Assembly: GCA_016866935.1 (NCBI GenBank)
Contig: VGKS01000005.1
Location: 1 to 37,460 of the forward strand
Reading direction: 5' to 3'
DNA: 37,460 nucleotides
DNA from: Candidatus Pacearchaeota archaeon
GTDB taxonomy: Archaea > Nanobdellota > Nanobdellia > Pacearchaeales > GW2011-AR1
Shown here: in pieces, positions 1,431 to 17,182 of the stretch
Numbering within the stretch: the stretch's first letter is position 1
Layout of the letters: each line of letters begins with the position of its first letter
Translations under genes and position numbers: made by a program
The notes under the pieces: generated by a model
Told to the model about the DNA's origin: nothing
Databases searched by the model: none
Seen by the model: the letters and a program-made list of their open reading frames with translations, nothing else

Positions 1431-2962
1431 TAATTAGTATTTCAAACAAATGCTTTATTTTTTGGAGCGAGTGCGAACGAACATTTTGTAAAAAAGATGT
1501 TCAATATTTTTCATAATAATAATTAATGCAATCTTGCCAGTGCATACGAGATCGATAAGATTTTCAAAACTCAAATTTCAACTTACAAGAAGAAATTTGA
1601 GACCTAGAAAACATCAGTTTTCTAGTTCATAAAAATTCTAACGAATTTTTAGAAATCCAGTTGATCCCGCTGGCGGTTGCGGCTATCTGGTTTGACTTAG
1701 ACATGCAAGTCTTCCGAAAGGAGGCGAACTGCTCAGTAACACGTAGATAACCTGCCCTATTGCCCTTGATACCCTCGGGAAACTGAGACTAAGAAAGGAT
1801 AGGCGCCGACTACTGGAATGTGTTGGCGCTCAAAATTTGCAATAGATTGGGTCTGCGGTGGATTAGGTTGTTGGCGGGGTAAAGGCCCACCAAGCCGATG
1901 ATCCATACGGGCTTTTAGCGAAGGGGCCCGGAGAGGGAGTCTGAGACACTACTCCCAGCCCTACGGGGTGCAGCAGTCGGGTATTTTCTGCAATGTACGA
2001 AAGTATGACAGGGCGAGCCAGAGTGATTCTCTATATTTGAGAATCTTTTGTGACATGTAAATAGTGTTACGAATAAGGACCGGGCAAGACTGGTGCCAGT
2101 CGCCGCGGTAATCCCAGCGGTCCAAGTCGCAACCACAATTATTGGGTCTAAAACATCCGTAGCTTGCTTAGAAAGTCTCTTGTGAAATCCGGCCTCTTAA
2201 GGGTCGAAGAGCAAGAGATACTTCTTGGCTAGAGACCGGGAGAGGTAAGAAGTATGGTCGGGGTACCGGTAAAATGGGTTGATCCCGTCTAGACTAACAA
2301 CAGCGAAGGCATCTTACCAGCACGGATCTGACAGTAAGGGATGAAGGCTAGGGGCGCAAAAGGGATTAGATACCCCTGTAGTCCTAGCAGTAAACACTGC
2401 ACACTAAACATTGGGGCCTCTTCGAGAGGTTTCAGTGCTGTAGCGAAGGCGTAGAGTGTGCTACCTGGGAAGTATAGTCGCAAGACCGAAACTTAAAGGA
2501 ATAGGCGGGGGAGTACTACAACGAGTGACGCGTACGGTTCAATTAGATTCTACACCGTGAACCTCACCAGAGCCGACAGCAGAATGAAGGTCAGTCTGAA
2601 GGGCTTACCTGACACGCTGAGAGGAGATGCATGGCCGACGTCAGCCTGTGTCGTGAGATGACCTGTTAAATCAGGTAACAGGCGAGACCCATATGTATAT
2701 TTAATTTTCAATATACAGACTGCCTTGGCAACAAGGAGGAAGGTGTGGGCTACGTTAGGTGAGTACGTCCCAAATGCTCTGGGCTACACGCGCGCGGCAA
2801 TGCTGCACTCAAAGGGTCGCAACGCCGAAAGGCGAAGCTAATCTCATAAACTGCAGCTTAGTTCAGATTGGGGGTTGCAACTCACCCCCATGACGCTGGA
2901 ATTCGTAGTAATCGGGCGTTAGCAACACCCGGTGAATATGTCAATGCTCCTTGCACTCACCG

Positions 2963-3787
2963 AAATAAATGTGCTTGGCAGCTTATTTTTCTAGAAAGTG
3001 AAAATCTTTCAGTTATCTTTCAACCAAATGTGCAGAAAGATAATTTAGCCAACAACGCAGGCGTAATTTGGTAACAAATACGCTGGAGGGCGTGAGGCAA
3101 AATTCAGCCAGTAACCTGTAAGGGTTTCCACAACGATATCTACAACGGGTCGGTGGTAGATAGAAGTTAATAGGGACGAGACTTGGATGAATGAAACAGA
3201 ATTGTAAGTGACCCAAGGAGATCCTAACTACTTTAGAATTAAAAACAAAGTATATTAGGAAGTCAGCTTAGTTCATAGTACCTTAAAGGGAAGGAACTAA
3301 ACCTTAATGCTAAATCCGGAATATGTAATTGGCTTAGTAGATGGTGAAGGATCATTTTACGTTAGAGTAAATGAAGATCCTAAACGAAGAAATAAGACTG
3401 AGTTTAAATTCAGTGTTAAACTTCGACACCATGATAAAGAGATTCTTGATAATCTAAAACAATTTTTTAATTGTGGCAATGTATATCTACAAAAAGATTC
3501 GAGGCCCAATCATACAGATTGTTACAGATTTGAAGTTAATAAGAAAGAAGATATTTTTAACAAAATAATTCCTTTTTTTGAAAAGAATCCTCCTAAGATA
3601 CAAAGCCGAAAGAGAGATTTTGAATTGTTTAAGCAAATTTCAAAGTTATCTCAAGAAAGTATTCTTGATAAAGAGAAAATTAAATCTCTAAAAAAAGAAA
3701 TGCATTGGGGGCTCGCAGTATACGGGAAATCCGTTCGTACTGTGGGGAACCAGTAACTCTAAGACGAAATAGAGTGAAAAGGAAATG
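2963..3787 (+). mobile_element. Intron in 16S rRNA with LAGLIDADG homing endonuclease ORF; probably a group I-type ribozyme
   Basis: Exon reads ttgcactcaccg|...|cccgtcaaacc, continuous with conserved 16S only after removing 825 nt. ~340 nt of hairpin-rich sequence lies upstream of the ORF and the last nucleotide is G. Confidence 0.88.
3307..3756 (+). CDS. Single-motif LAGLIDADG homing endonuclease encoded in the 16S intron
   Basis: YVIGLVDGEGSFYVRV motif plus GNVYLQKDSR...YRFEVNKKEDI typical of LAGLIDADG_1. Confidence 0.93.
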   Translation: MLNPEYVIGLVDGEGSFYVRVNEDPKRRNKTEFKFSVKLRHHDKEILDNLKQFFNCGNVYLQKDSRPNHTDCYRFEVNKKEDIFNKIIPFFEKNPPKIQSRKRDFELFKQISKLSQESILDKEKIKSLKKEMHWGLAVYGKSVRTVGNQ

Positions 3788-3950
3788 CCCGTCAAACCAA
3801 CCGAGTTATGCATTGATGAGGCCCGTTAGGGACGAGTCTTTGTATGTCGAGGTAGGTTAAGTCGTCACAAGGTATCCGTAGGGGAACCTGCGGATGGATC
3901 ACCTCCTAAATTTATTACAAATTGATTAAAGTTATATTGATTACTGGTTT

Positions 3951-3963
3951 GCCGATTGCGTAC
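3951..3963 (+). repeat. 3' arm of pre-16S processing stem
   Basis: gccgattgcgtac complementary to 1418..1430. Confidence 0.7.
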
Positions 3964-4024
3964 TGACGTGTTCTATCTTTATTTTTTTAGATAGTTTTAT
4001 AAAAGATTGTTTTTGATATTTTTC

Positions 4025-4318
4025 ATGGTAAGACGAAATGGAAACCATTTAGAAACTGTAACGTCTGAAGGCATTTATTCTTTTAGAATGGTTCCTCATG
4101 TAGATGGAGGGTTTGATATTTCAGGAGATAACTATAGAGTAGATTGGGAAATTAGGCCTCAAGAATTATCAGACATTCCGCGGCCCATTAGACTTAAAAT
4201 GTTTAATGAAGCAATATTGGCTGGACAAGAATTTAAAAGAAGATACAGTGTAAAATCGACTGTTATTTATGTTAGTGCTAGTGATTTCTCAAATCTTGTT
4301 CGTACTGTAGCAGAATAA
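4025..4318 (+). CDS. Hypothetical protein
   Basis: ATG-initiated part (MVRRNGNHLETVTSEG...) of ORF 4007..4318. Confidence 0.55.
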   Translation: MVRRNGNHLETVTSEGIYSFRMVPHVDGGFDISGDNYRVDWEIRPQELSDIPRPIRLKMFNEAILAGQEFKRRYSVKSTVIYVSASDFSNLVRTVAE

Positions 4319-4347
4319 TTTTTAAATAACAATCTGCATTAAAATTT

Positions 4348-4557
4348 ATGGAAAAGAGGAAACATGTTTTCTGGGAGCTGATGCTTATTATTGGCTCTGT
4401 ATTTGTTTTCAGAAGCCTTTGGATTTTGATGGATAGAATTGATCTTTTTAATTCTGGAAAGAGCCTTATCATATTCTTCTTTGTAGGAGTTGTGCTTACA
4501 GGTATAGGGTTTTACAAGATAGTACATTCCGACAAGGGCTGGGGAAAAAGACATTAG
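4348..4557 (+). CDS. Small membrane protein, 69 aa
   Basis: Two predicted hydrophobic segments; ATG start. Confidence 0.5.
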   Translation: MEKRKHVFWELMLIIGSVFVFRSLWILMDRIDLFNSGKSLIIFFFVGVVLTGIGFYKIVHSDKGWGKRH

Positions 4558-5081
4558 CTTTCTAGATGCTTTTTGCATGCAATTAGTTTGATTTCATATT
4601 TATTCTTTATTTTTTCTACAATACTGACGCAGGTATTTCCATATTTATGACTATAATCTTTGACAATTTTTCCGCCTTCTTCTTTACTTCCTGTTGTGAG
4701 TGCTAATAAAGTCAAACAAACAGAACCATGAGCAACTATAATCGCATTTTTACCAAATTTCTCTATTTCTTTAAAGGATTCACTACATCTTGAGATAAAA
4801 TCTTTTAGAGATTCATCATTAATATCATCTATGAGTCTAGAGTCATATTTAATCTCAACATTATGAAACTTGTTTATTTCTTGCGCTGTTTCTTTTGCTC
4901 TTTGTAATGTAGAACAAAAAATAATTTCTATTTTTTCATTTTTTAATCTTTCTGCAACAGCCCTTGCTTGAATTAATCCCTTTTCTGTTATGGGGGTATC
5001 TGACCATTCATCTTTGTTAGCCTGGCTCATATTTTTAGAATTGGCTAAAGATTCTGCGTGCCTTACAATTATTAGATTCAT
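4554..5081 (-). CDS. Histidine phosphatase (phosphoglycerate mutase-like) family protein
   Basis: N-terminal IVRHAES (RHG-type) motif, TEKGLIQA, CSTLQRAKETA, second His in VAHGSV. Confidence 0.93.
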   Translation of the reverse strand: MNLIIVRHAESLANSKNMSQANKDEWSDTPITEKGLIQARAVAERLKNEKIEIIFCSTLQRAKETAQEINKFHNVEIKYDSRLIDDINDESLKDFISRCSESFKEIEKFGKNAIIVAHGSVCLTLLALTTGSKEEGGKIVKDYSHKYGNTCVSIVEKIKNKYEIKLIACKKHLES

Positions 5082-5091
5082 GAATGTGAAA

Positions 5092-5162
5092 TGGACTCGC
5101 CGAGGATCGAACTCGGGACCCCCCGGTGCAAGCGGGGCGTTTTACCACTAGACTACGAGCCC
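5092..5162 (-). tRNA. tRNA-Ala (anticodon TGC)
   Basis: Reverse strand cloverleaf GGGCTCG..CGAGTCCA with G3:U70; anticodon loop CTTGCAC; T-arm CCGAGTTCGATCCTCGG. Confidence 0.95.
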
Positions 5163-5214
5163 ATTAAAACAACTTAAAGAAGATGATTTTTAAGTCTATC
5201 TAAAATATGAAATC

Positions 5215-5445
5215 TTACCTGTGAGACTTTTTATTTTCAAGCATTATATACTCGAGTAAACGTTCTACACCTTCATTTACCTCATCTAAATAAGCCATTG
5301 CAAGACCCCATCTAAAAGTTGCTATCTGATGAGATTCCCTACGCTCTTGTAATGTTGAAGGTGTTTTTCGCTCATCATTTTTAAAAATCAATTCTACAAC
5401 AGGATGTAACCTGTAACTTCCAAGTGACGCTTCGTAATCTACCAT
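5215..5445 (-). CDS. Hypothetical protein, 76 aa
   Basis: ORF only. Confidence 0.45.
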   Translation of the reverse strand: MVDYEASLGSYRLHPVVELIFKNDERKTPSTLQERRESHQIATFRWGLAMAYLDEVNEGVERLLEYIMLENKKSHR

Positions 5446-5532
5446 TGTTCTAATATTTTTGAATGGTTTTTAAACCTTGACATTTTCATTTTTTTAGAAT
5501 AATTTTAAATATGATTGTTACTTACTTTTATC

Positions 5533-5877
5533 ATGAGTAAAACTCAAACAGGGTTAACTTTTATTGCTCTTTTTTCTTTAGGAGTTACGGGTATACTTAA
5601 TTATCAAAGTAAAGGTCTGGATTTGGCCGCGAGACTATATGGTAAAGCAGCTGGAAATGATGGTGTGCTGCAAATCGAAGAGAAGGGAAGATTATTATCA
5701 GGTCTTGGGCTTGATGCAAAAATTGCTGATGAAGGATCTCTTTTAATAAGACCTTCGGAAAAAAGTGAAAGATTAGATTTGTATATTGTTAGAGGAAGTT
5801 CTTCAGAGTCAGCATATAGAAAAATTGGAGAAGTAGAATTTAAAATTGCTGAAAGATATTTGTTGAATGACGAATAA
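5533..5877 (+). CDS. Hypothetical membrane-anchored/secreted protein
   Basis: N-terminal hydrophobic segment (TGLTFIALFSLGVTGIL); ATG at 5533 inside ORF 5515..5877. Confidence 0.55.
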   Translation: MSKTQTGLTFIALFSLGVTGILNYQSKGLDLAARLYGKAAGNDGVLQIEEKGRLLSGLGLDAKIADEGSLLIRPSEKSERLDLYIVRGSSSESAYRKIGEVEFKIAERYLLNDE

Positions 5878-5903
5878 TTTCTCGAAAACTTTATGGCGAA
5901 AGC

Positions 5904-5912
5904 TTTTTAAAG
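5904..5912 (+). promoter_or_regulatory. Putative TATA box (tttttaaag) for the 23S transcription unit
   Basis: BRE/TATA-like cgaaagctttttaaag ahead of a structured leader. Confidence 0.45.
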
Positions 5913-6068
5913 ACATTATCGCTGGAGTTGTTTAGATGTTACGCTACCAAAGATTACACTTACTTGCCGGAGAGTTAGTCGACGGTATTTAAGATAACTT
6001 TCTAGCGCATCATCACTCATAGGGTGCGCAATCATTGGTTGCGTTATCTTGCAGAGTTGATATTCAAT

Positions 6069-6087
6069 GACGCGCGTACGCAGGAAA
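6069..6087 (+). repeat. 5' arm of pre-23S processing stem (gacgcgcgtacgcaggaaa)
   Basis: Perfect 19-nt inverted repeat with 9579..9597, flanking the 23S gene. Confidence 0.9.
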
Positions 6088-6228
6088 ACACAGAAAATAA
6101 GAGAAATTTTATTTTCTGTGCGATCGACATGCTGACTGATAAAGGAAGCATGATCGACGCAAGCAAATCTAATTCCTAATAGGAAAAATTTGTGAGTTTA
6201 GAAGAATACTACAACGTATTTTTTATAT

Positions 6229-9200
6229 AAAATTCTGATTGAAACTGAAAAATTTCGACACAATTAATTTTGTGTTTTACTATGCTAGTTAACGGATAGC
6301 TTGGCTTGAATTGTTATGAAGGACGCGGCAAGCTGCGATAAGCTTTGGGGAAGTGCATGCGACTTTTGATCCAAAGATCTCCGAATATGACAACAGACAC
6401 TTTTAGTGTATGCCGAGAGGCAAATGAAACGCAGGGAATTGAAACATCTTAGTACCTGCAGGAAAAGAAAGAATTATCGATTCCCTTAGTAGTGGCGAAC
6501 GAAAAGGGAAGAGGGCAAACCGAATCTCCTTTTGAAAAGAAGGCAGAGATGTGGTGGAGATACATGGCTGCGATACCGAGCAAGAGTCCTCTGGAACGAG
6601 GCGCCTTAGAGGGTGATAGCCCCGTATGTGAAGGTATTATGTCGTGCTCCGAAAGAGTAGGGCTCCTTGGATAAGGAGTCTGAATACCGGTGGATTAACA
6701 CCGAACCCTAAATATAGATTCAAGTCCGATAGAGAACTTAGTACCGCGAGGGAAAGCTGAAAAGTACCCTTAACCGGGTGTGAAAAGACTTGAAATTGAC
6801 TAGCGACAGCTGGTTACGGCTTTTAGGAGTCGTAACGTACGTTTTGAAAAACGAGCCAAGGAGTTTTACTAAGTGGCAAGGTTAGCGAAAGCGAGCCATA
6901 GCGAAAGCGAGTCTGAAAGGGCGCGAGTCACTTGGTAAATACCCGAAGCCGGATGATTTACTCGTGAGCAGGCCGAAGTTCTCCGAAAGGGGGATGGAGG
7001 GCCGAAGTGGTGTTATGTGCATGTACTCATATGACTTACGAGTAGGGGTGAAAAGCCTATCTAATTCGGCGATGGCTGGTTCCTGTCGAAATATGCCTCA
7101 GTATAGTCTCGCGCAGTTATGGTGGCGGGGTAAAGTACGGATATGGTCCGCAGGGTCGAAAGATCACGGGACTCTTTCCAACTCTAAACCTGTCATCGAC
7201 GTAACGCGGGAATGGGGGCCGGTGCGTAAGGTACCGTTCCGAGACCCGAACAAGGGAGACTGGAGTTAAGGTCCCAAAATGTATGTTAAGTGTATCAAAA
7301 GGAGTCTTGATCCTGAGACAGTGGGGATGTAGGCTTAGAAGCAGCCACCATTTAAAGAAAGCGTAATAGCTCACCCATCGAGGCTCGAGGCCCTGAAAAT
7401 GGACGGGGCTAAACATACTACCGATACTCCAGAGGCGCTCTGTATGAGCGTTCTGGTAGGCAGGCGTCTATGTTGCGTAGAAGTATTTCCGTGAGGAGAT
7501 ATGGAGCGACATGGAATGCAGATCTTGGTGCTAGTAAGATCAGATTGTCCTGAGAACGGACAGCGCCGTAAGAGCAAGGTTTCCTTGGCACTATCGATTA
7601 ACCAAGGGTTAGTCGGCACCTAAGTCACCCCTTAGCTGGAGGTGGCGAATGGGAATCCGGTTAATATTCCGGAACACAACCTTCTTTGACATAGAATAAC
7701 TTGGGGATATGCTGGTACTCGAGAGAGTGCTTTGCAAGAGAAATTAATGGATCGTTATGATACGAAGTTAATCAAACTTGCAAGCGAAAGCAGCAGAGTC
7801 CTTGAGTCCATGAAAAAATTTATGTCGTGTGGGGAGGTTGGGCCGTACCAAGAATCGACACTGATGCTCTGGCTGAGTAGGCTAAGGCGTGCAAGGGATA
7901 CGTTGGGTAAGGGAACTCGGCATATTGGCCCTTTAGCTTCGGTATAAGGGGTGTCTATAATCGTCTTTGACATTAGAAGGCGATGGTAGATCTCAGTAAC
8001 AAGGACTGTCCGACTGTTTATCAAAAACGTAGCTGGTTGCTAATCTGAAAAGATGTGTATAACCGGTGAGATCTGCCCAGTGGCGGTGTTTCAAAGCTCG
8101 GTTCAACGGGCCTAAGACCCGCTAAACGGCGGGCCTAACTATGAGGCTCTTAAGGTAGCGTAATGCCTTGTCGTCTGAATGGCGACGTGCATGAATGGTT
8201 TAACGAGATAGTCACTGTCCCTACCCAATACCTTCTGAACTCACTTACCGGTGAAAATGCCGGTGACTCCTTGTGGGAAGCGGAGACCTTGTGGACCTTT
8301 ACTGCAACTTGTTGCTGTACCATTATGGTGAATGCATAGAATAAGTAGGAGCGTCGAAACTCGTTTTTAGGAACGATGGAGCACAATATGTAATACTACT
8401 CATTTGTTGTCATGGTGCTCACCTCGCGAGAGGGACACCAGCAGGCGGGCAGTTTGGCTGGGGCGGCACCCTGTCGAAAAGATATCGATAGGGCCTAACG
8501 ACAAGCTCATTCGGGTTGGAAATCTGAAGTTGAGTGCGAAGGCAAAAGCTTGTCTGACTGTATTCCGAACGGCAAGGGATGCAGAGATGAAAGTCGGGCT
8601 TAGCGACCCCACGTAGTTTCTTAATAGGACTCGTGTGTGACAGAAAAGGTACCCCAAGGATAACAGGCTTGTCGCGCCCGATAGTCCATATTGACGGCGC
8701 GGTTTGGTACATCGCTGTCGGCTCTTCCTATCCTGGTTGTGCACAGGCAGCCAAGGGTGTCGGAGTTCACGCATTAAAAGGGATCGTTAGCTGGGTTAAG
8801 AACGTCAAAAACGCTAACGCAAAATAATTCCCGTACCAAAAATTAATTGTTATTGAGAGAAACTCACTTCAGAAATGAAGAACTGTTAAAAAGAGTTATC
8901 AAAATAATTACTAAATTTATTTACCGCATACTATCAAAATACGGCGTTGCATTCAAGCGATTGAATGAAAAATAGAATCAGCTCATATCGGTGAAGTCTT
9001 TCTCGCAACAGAGAATGATAATCCCGAGGGAAGTTTTACTCATGAAGTAAAACCCCGTAGAGACTTTAGTTTTTTTGAAATAAATAGGCATCGTCAATGC
9101 TGACAAAACTAGGAATTATTCGATCTGGATTGATCTCCAGGAAAAACTTAAGTGTTTAGAATAGTTAAGACGCTGATCGCTCATTAATTTGAGATGAAGG

Positions 9201-9551
9201 TATAGTCCATACTAATCGAAGAAATTAAGATTAGAGTATATACGTGAGACAGTTTGTATGATATCTGCAAGGAGCGTTGTTGTTTGAGTGGAACGAGGAT
9301 TTAGTACGAGAGGAACGATCCTCGGATGCCTCTGGTAAACGGTTGTTATGAAGCAGGCCGTGTAGCTACGCATTGTTTGGATAAGTGCTGAAAGCATCTA
9401 AGCACGAAGCCATCCGCAAGACGAAACAACTAAGGCCGTCATAGAAGATGACGTTGATAGAGCTGGTGTGTACGCCCTAAGGCAACGAGGGGTTCAGCAT
9501 ACAGCTACTAATAGCCTCAAATGAATTTGTTTAGAAGTAAATCAGAATTTT
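6229..9551 (+). rRNA. rrl: 23S ribosomal RNA, interrupted by an intron at about 8806..9242; ends approximate
   Basis: ggcgatggctggttcc-type segments, gtaatagctcac, aaggtagcgtaatgccttgtcg, gataacaggct, cgaggatttagtacgagaggaac, tactaatagcctc. Terminal helix 6229..6240 / 9540..9551. Confidence 0.96.
8806..9242 (+). mobile_element. ORF-less group I intron in 23S rRNA at about E. coli U2593 (I-CreI-type site)
   Basis: Exons aagaacgt|cgtgagacagtttg flank 437 extra nt. Core order: P-like atcggtgaag, P5 hairpin, Q-like aatcccgaggg, P6 hairpin gttttac..gtaaaac, R-like cgtagagacttta, S-like gaaggtatagtcc. Confidence 0.9.
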
Positions 9552-15846: not shown

Positions 15847-15880
15847 TAAGTTTATAAAATAAAATCAGTTAAATTAGTTG

Positions 15881-17182
15881 ATGAGTGAAAAGAAAGTTGA
15901 ATGGTACTTGGAGTTTGTGGATCCTCACTATAAACCAAAGAGTGATGAGCTGGTTGCTTTATTTTATTTTGAGTCTGCGAAAGGCATATCTAATAATGAA
16001 GCAATGGGAAGAATTGCCTCTGAAAGCTCGACAGGAACATGGACGACGCTCTTTAAGATGCCCCCTCGCATGAAAAAACTGATGGCTCATCCGTTCCATA
16101 AAGATGGCAATTATGTCAAAGTAGCTTATCCTTTAGATTTATGGGAGAAAGGAAACTTGCCACAACTCTTAAGCGGGATTGGTGGAAATATCTTTGGTAT
16201 GAAAGCTTTAGAAAACTTGAGACTTATGGATATTCAATTTCCTAAAAGTTACTTGAGAAGTTTTCCTGGACCTAGACAGGGAATGCATGGAATAAGAAAA
16301 ATGATGAATGTCTATAAGCGACCTATTTTGGGTTCTGTGCCTAAACCTAAAATTGGCTTTAGCGATAAGGAACATTCTGAAATTGGATTTGAGACATGGA
16401 TGGGTGGATTTGATTGTGTAAAGGACGACGAGAATTTGACTTCTACATCATTTAATAATTTTGATAAAAGAGTAAAGTATATTGCTAAGTTAAGAGAAAA
16501 GGCAGAGAAATTAACTGGAGACACAAAAGATGCTTATATCAATATTACTGCAGAAACAGACGAGATGAAAAGAAGAGCTAAATTGCTTCATGATTATGGA
16601 TTTAAGCACGCCATGATTGATGTAGTTGTTGTTGGAAATTCCGGAGTGCAGACTTTACGTAATACTCTTGGAGATTATGGGATGGCAATTCATGCTCACA
16701 GGGCAATGCACGCGATGTTTGATAAAAACCCAAAACATGGAATGAGCATGTATATGCTTGCTAAATTAATGAGAATGGCTGGAGTAGACCAGATACATGC
16801 AGGAACAGCTGTGGGTAAACTTGTAGGAACAGCAGAAGAAGTAAGAAATGTTTCTGACACATTAAGAGAGAATAAAGTGAAAGAAAAGAGAAATATTAGA
16901 CTTAGCCAGGATTGGTTTGGTCTTAAGCAAGCTTTCCCTGTTTCTTCAGGGGGCGTTCATCCAGGCCTATTGCCTGATTTAATGAAACTATTTGGAGATG
17001 AATGTGTAATACTTGTTTCGGGTGGAATTCATGGACATCCTCGAGGAACTCGGGCAGGAGCAATGGCGGCACGACAGGCAATTGACGCATGGCACGAAGG
17101 CGAGACTTTAGAAGAGCATGCCAAATACAATAAAGAACTTAGAGAAGCCCTTGATAAATGGGGTGGAATGAAGCCTGTTTAA
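15881..17182 (+). CDS. rbcL: Ribulose bisphosphate carboxylase large chain, form II/III-like
   Basis: ASESSTGTWTTL, GNIFG, VPKPKIGFS, GGFDCVKDDE, HAHRAMHA, HAGTAVGKLVG, VSSGGVHPG, SGGIHGHPRGTRAGA. Confidence 0.96.
   Translation: MSEKKVEWYLEFVDPHYKPKSDELVALFYFESAKGISNNEAMGRIASESSTGTWTTLFKMPPRMKKLMAHPFHKDGNYVKVAYPLDLWEKGNLPQLLSGIGGNIFGMKALENLRLMDIQFPKSYLRSFPGPRQGMHGIRKMMNVYKRPILGSVPKPKIGFSDKEHSEIGFETWMGGFDCVKDDENLTSTSFNNFDKRVKYIAKLREKAEKLTGDTKDAYINITAETDEMKRRAKLLHDYGFKHAMIDVVVVGNSGVQTLRNTLGDYGMAIHAHRAMHAMFDKNPKHGMSMYMLAKLMRMAGVDQIHAGTAVGKLVGTAEEVRNVSDTLRENKVKEKRNIRLSQDWFGLKQAFPVSSGGVHPGLLPDLMKLFGDECVILVSGGIHGHPRGTRAGAMAARQAIDAWHEGETLEEHAKYNKELREALDKWGGMKPV

Follow-up and report, generated by a model that had tools for sequence, protein, structure and literature searches.

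A group I intron ending in adenosine in an archaeal 23S rRNA gene and its relatives at LSU/2593 in a DPANN family

Group I introns end almost universally in a guanosine (omega-G), which is taught as being needed for the second step of splicing, and Tetrahymena ribozymes in which the guanosine-site pair is altered to A:U can use adenosine. In the Tetrahymena intron, the G264-C311 pair holds the terminal G, while the preceding strand is anchored by P9.0 and the 3' exon is brought into line by P10 (PMC10020454). The mitochondrial ND5-717 intron of hexacorals lacks omega-G and its exons are nevertheless perfectly ligated in vivo (PMC6545197); in Stichodactyla it ends in A (PMC8146996). A terminal A was suggested by the authors of these studies to prevent hydrolysis at the 3' site and circularisation (PMC6545197, PMC8146996). 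ND5-717 was the only intron without a terminal G found in the literature searched, which did not cover subscription papers.

At position 2593 of the large-subunit rRNA (LSU/2593), group I introns are known from several sources. Nawrocki, Jones and Eddy (2018, PMC6125680) catalogued 39 group I introns in archaea. Subtype IA3 accounts for 12 of these, and ten of the 12 lie at LSU/2593; these ten share the site, the DPANN hosts and the core with the intron described here. The main text of that paper is silent on the terminal base, though its intron IA3.12 ends in A. Bacterial, largely CPR, 23S introns at 2593 (PMC11270868) have the same site and core type. The Chlamydomonas chloroplast LSU intron, which encodes I-CreI, was compared through its endonuclease and target site alone; its target site is that of the present intron, relatives of which have endonucleases of the I-CreI family, whereas its host is a chloroplast.

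In this study, a 37,460-nucleotide stretch of a Candidatus Pacearchaeota archaeon (the window) was analysed with metagenome-assembled genomes of the host family and its relatives; named records among the family members are Pacearchaeota. An initial annotation had proposed an ORF-less group I intron in the 23S rRNA gene of the window and had called archaeal group I introns a recent and small set, which is correct but understates that this kind of intron is already published at exactly this site and in this subtype. That reading agreed with the sequence on all counts tested, and the missing terminal G went unremarked in it.

Host gene and intron boundaries

The RNA genes of the window are an archaeal 16S (from 1654), a 23S (6269-9531), RNase P RNA and two tRNA genes. 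The features of the 23S gene and its intron are as follows.

6269..9531 (+): host 23S rRNA gene, split at E. coli U2593/C2594; RF02540, 2180 bits, full model
8801..8805 (+): 5' exon strand of P1, AACGU; U2593 pairs with G8944 as U.G
8806..9242 (+): group I intron, 437 nt, ORF-less; first base C8806, last (omega) base A9242
8806..8939 (+): long L1 loop from the 5' splice site to the internal guide sequence (IGS; 138 nt counted to the IGS)
8940..8943 (+): IGS extension UACG, intron strand of P10; pairs with 9243-9246 CGUG, 4/4
8944..8948 (+): IGS GCGUU, intron strand of P1; 5/5 pairs
8950..8967 (+): P2 hairpin (CAUUCA/UGAAUG)
8977..8982 (+): 5' strand of P3, AUCAGC; pairs with 9172-9177 GCUGAU; covaries in relatives
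8988..9027 (+): P4 (8988-8991/9024-9027) around P5 (9000-9004/9011-9015)
9028..9056 (+): P6 (9028-9030/9054-9056 and 9033-9039/9047-9053); covaries in relatives
9060..9065 (+): 5' strand of P7, with bulged A9061 and guanosine-site G9062
9066..9168 (+): P7.1/P7.2-like hairpin region, predicted only; no better than shuffles
9172..9177 (+): 3' strand of P3, GCUGAU
9180..9193 (+): P8 hairpin (CUCA/UGAG); covaries in relatives
9204..9208 (+): 3' strand of P7, AGUCC; C9207 pairs with G9062 and C9208 with G9060
9209..9211 (+): 5' strand of P9.0, AUA; pairs with 9239-9241 UAU, 3/3; covaries in relatives
9212..9234 (+): P9 hairpin (CUAAUC/GAUUAG)
9242..9242 (+): terminal intron base (omega), A and not G
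9243..9246 (+): 3' exon strand of P10 (C2594-G2597, CGUG)

The exons end in ...GGGTTAAGAACGT (to 8805) and begin with CGTGAGACAGTTTG (from 9243), and the gene is gapless once 8806-9242 is removed. In intronless relatives of the host family, the 23S gene is continuous across the 8805/9243 junction and equals the joined exons of the window. The length and coordinates given in the initial annotation are exact. A one-base ambiguity of the junction (C8806 = C9243) was resolved by the first intron base of relatives, which is U or A. The 23S region was matched in 34 of 57 host-family genomes, the majority of them empty at L2593, and an insertion was present in G000, G027, G028, G035 and G052. The published IA3.12 intron (MNVZ01000017.1) was recovered by a pattern search, with exon-derived coordinates equal to the published 14519-14202; since this homologue is published as LSU/2593, the site is E. 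coli U2593/C2594, as had been claimed, and the insertion follows U2593 as in the IA3 subgroup at LSU/2593. The longest ORFs fully within 8806-9242 reach 42 aa, which bears out the description as ORF-less.

The 16S and 23S genes (1654-9531) lie on the same strand more than 2 kb apart, with protein genes and a tRNA-Ala gene on the other strand between them, and hence do not form a usual rRNA operon. The window of this DPANN genome also carries a RuBisCO large-chain gene (15878-17182, +; PF00016, E 2.6e-83).

The 16S gene is itself split by an 825-nt insertion (2962-3786, +, about E. coli 1400), in which ORF 3307-3756 encodes a LAGLIDADG_1 protein (E 1.8e-18). Its match to group II D1-D4 scores 31.2 bits, just under the cut-off of 35. 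It further has a domain VI hairpin, a domain V-like hairpin with a CGC triad and a 2-nt bulge, and AU at its 3' end. At the same 16S site, L142 (G063, host family) has a 795-nt group II-like insertion with an endonuclease 62% identical and a domain VI hairpin altered with compensation. At the start of both insertions, GTGC is preceded by some 8 additional bases (AAATAAAT), which recalls the sequences added at the 5' end of fungal rRNA group II introns. By these features, the window insertion seems to be an archaeal representative of the group II introns with LAGLIDADG genes, which are known at this 16S site in CPR bacteria (PMC11270868) and of which a 2026 survey of 753 listed green algae, fungi and bacteria only (PMC13190283).

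Fold, model scores and endonucleases of the lineage

The window intron can be folded with every element from P1 to P9, with P9.0, P10 and the P3/P7 pseudoknot, and all of these pair, including the P, Q, R, S, P5 and P6 elements named in the initial annotation. A U.G pair (U8805.G8944) stands at the 5' splice site in P1, the conserved core P3-P8 contains the P3/P7 pseudoknot, and P7 has the guanosine-binding pair G9062-C9207 with bulged A9061. Among 12 relatives, with the window excluded, 27 core pairs were formed in 99.4% of cells, compared with 33-52% for slid-partner controls, and changes on both sides occurred at 6 core pairs, in P3, P6 and P8; P7 is invariant among the relatives and is thus backed by pairing alone. 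Fold and covariation are accordingly evident in the aligned sequences and agree with a group I intron in an archaeal 23S gene, as originally proposed. Two hairpin domains corresponding to P7.1/P7.2, an IA3 trait, were predicted in 9066-9168, no better than in shuffles.

The check suggested in the initial annotation, the curated model RF00028, gave a match to the window intron (29.4 bits, E 1.5e-5 in a 651-nt search) but one under the gathering score of 50 bits, which is why the intron is missing from the gathering scan of the whole window. When its own genome was searched with RF00028, the intron was not among the matches, all of which were weak and unrelated. The published IA3.12 intron scored 34.8 bits in the same test, and Nawrocki et al. 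describe no significant RF00028 match for their archaeal introns either (PMC6125680); the low score therefore reflects the model more than the intron.

A 153-aa LAGLIDADG protein is encoded in P6 of L171, L185 and L187, at the same site in the host family, and the L171 protein matches I-CreI with an E value of about 7e-30. I-CreI-family endonucleases occur in P6 of these three and of L181 and L182. Because relatives at this site encode I-CreI homologues, the previously claimed link to the I-CreI target position holds for this lineage, the window copy being without the gene; a search for endonuclease remnants in the window intron gave only chance-level tblastn matches (best E 0.023 over 12 residues). 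Pairwise dN/dS among the L171, L185 and L187 endonucleases was about 0.10-0.19: the homing endonucleases of these three omega-A introns are intact and under purifying selection, which points to a live element. The bacterial L056 intron also encodes an I-CreI-like LAGLIDADG protein.

Terminal adenosine across the family

The window intron ends in A9242. Of the distinct L2593 introns that lie in the host family or closely match it, 22 could be read across both junctions, and every one has a terminal A, including L028 and L073, which match the family without bearing a family label; the intron of G035, of which only the 3' end was read, is a 23rd. The family search alone gave omega-A in 20 genomes of 13 genera. 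Terminal G was found in L156, L180, L181, L182 and L183 of other DPANN families and in the seven bacterial introns compared (L032, L038, L051, L056, L094, L123 and L140), and additional searches in three other DPANN families yielded no new case of either omega-A or omega-G. The 3' ends of L171 (ATTAACATA/CGTGAG) and L183 (ATTAACATG/CGTGAG) differ solely in the terminal base. L073 (CAIVPY010000543.1) lies on a contig filed as Bacteroidetes whose 23S gene has the omega-A L2593 intron, and which is probably a misbinned archaeal contig.

P9.0 covaries up to the terminal base in both omega-A and omega-G introns, as AUG/CAU, AUA/UAU, ACA/UGU, ACU/AGU, AUC/GAU, ACC/GGU and GUG/CAC, the first six of which make up the omega-A set. 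Its first two pairs form in 22 of 22 omega-A introns and all three in 19 of 22. P10 starts from C2594, and its third pair tracks base 2596 (C-G in 12, U-A in 9 and U.G in 1 of the 22). The 3' register is therefore fixed by covarying P9.0 before and P10 after the terminal base, and in this register the A is common to the family's sequences. P10 was contiguous over 3 bp or more and adjoined P1 in 22/22 omega-A introns versus 1/11 omega-G introns; in the bacterial introns, the IGS-adjacent base is unpaired with C2594, so that P10 is not contiguous with P1. Common descent confounds the association of P10 with terminal A, since the change may have happened only once. The tree needs two changes of the terminal base, on weakly supported branches, and does not separate a single gain of A from a gain followed by a reversal.

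In L096 and L126, the L1923 introns of the same 23S genes terminate in G; hence the A is specific to the L2593 intron, and the hosts are not generally without omega-G introns. No compensatory change was found at the P7 guanosine site, the omega-G intron L156 having an identical P7, and the A:U change known to permit the use of adenosine is absent from the window intron (G9062-C9207). A long L1 was ruled out as a correlate of terminal A by the short L1 of L184 and L187, and of 20 omega-A introns only 3 showed pairing between L1 and the IGS that was better than in shuffled sequences (5% level). Two motifs are conserved in most omega-A introns: GCUAACGA near the 5' end of L1 (window 8812-8820) and CGCAACUAUCAAAA directly before the IGS (window 8925-8940), neither of them clearly complementary to the IGS.

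Proposed splicing and alternative explanations

The window insertion is very probably an IA3-like self-splicing group I intron of a lineage spread by I-CreI-type endonucleases, with a 3' site set mainly by P9.0 and P10, which are proposed in this role because the terminal base is A and not G. An exogenous G docked in the normal P7 site would cut after U2593, and the 5' exon, held by P1, would then attack after A9242. P9.0 (9209-9211/9239-9241), ending exactly at A9242, and P10 (8940-8943/9243-9246), continuing directly from P1, would help to set the 3' splice site. We infer that the intron splices, that A9242 is the base used and that P10 rescues the reaction, and that P9.0 and a strong P10 may compensate for the missing G; against this, the P7 guanosine site keeps a G:C pair, which is expected to favour G over A.

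Four other explanations were weighed. That the intron is decayed and non-splicing, retained in or fragmenting the 23S rRNA, is suggested by the loss of a catalytically important base and by a window copy without an ORF, and the single occurrence of the 23S region in this incomplete genome, a terminal A common to at least 13 genera with a conserved core and covarying P9.0 and P10, and the selected endonucleases of some members make it very improbable, although still the likeliest of the four. Somewhat less credible is a true terminal G at G9244, with an intron ending ...UACG and a mature 23S without C2594 and G2595. Such an end would restore an omega-G fitting the intact guanosine site and resembles the bacterial L2593 introns, which end ACG/CG; however, P9.0 and P10 put the splice site after A9242, the archaeal omega-G homologues (ACATG/CG) and the host family (ACATA/CG) are in the same register and differ by a single substitution, and part of the conserved H93 tip, kept by all intronless relatives, would be deleted.

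Alteration of the terminal A in the RNA, for example deamination to an inosine acting like G, would reconcile a normal guanosine site with the genomic A. No sequence evidence for deamination was seen, to our knowledge no archaeal enzyme exists for such a change, and the L1923 introns of the same genes keep a genomic G; this explanation is regarded as highly improbable. The most remote of all is a bulge-helix-bulge intron cut by the tRNA splicing endonuclease, the commonest type among archaeal rRNA introns: of the 4-bp central helix that such an intron would need between 3-nt bulges at the junctions, 1 pair of 4 forms in either register, and the group I core is complete and covaries.

As the ND5-717 intron documents a natural exception to omega-G, the window intron can be placed as a variant within the group I class. 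Both ND5-717 and the archaeal set lack terminal G; ligation was seen in vivo for the former and is proposed for the latter. ND5-717 belongs to another host gene and domain of life, is strictly vertical with mitochondrial genes inside P8, and is back-spliced in corallimorpharians, whereas the archaeal omega-A introns lie in rRNA, are variably present and carry endonucleases in some members. By analogy, the suggested protection from hydrolysis and circularisation could also benefit the archaeal omega-A introns.

It is rather likely that, in one DPANN family, every L2593 intron joins its exons via a terminal A although its guanosine site is otherwise normal, with P9.0 and a reinforced P10 choosing the 3' site. 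If true, this would be an exception to the omega-G rule that occurs naturally in prokaryotes and spans several genera. At least 22 sequence-diverse omega-A introns beside same-site omega-G homologues would offer a natural comparison of G replacements, and annotation rules requiring a terminal G would miss archaeal rRNA introns or place their ends wrongly.
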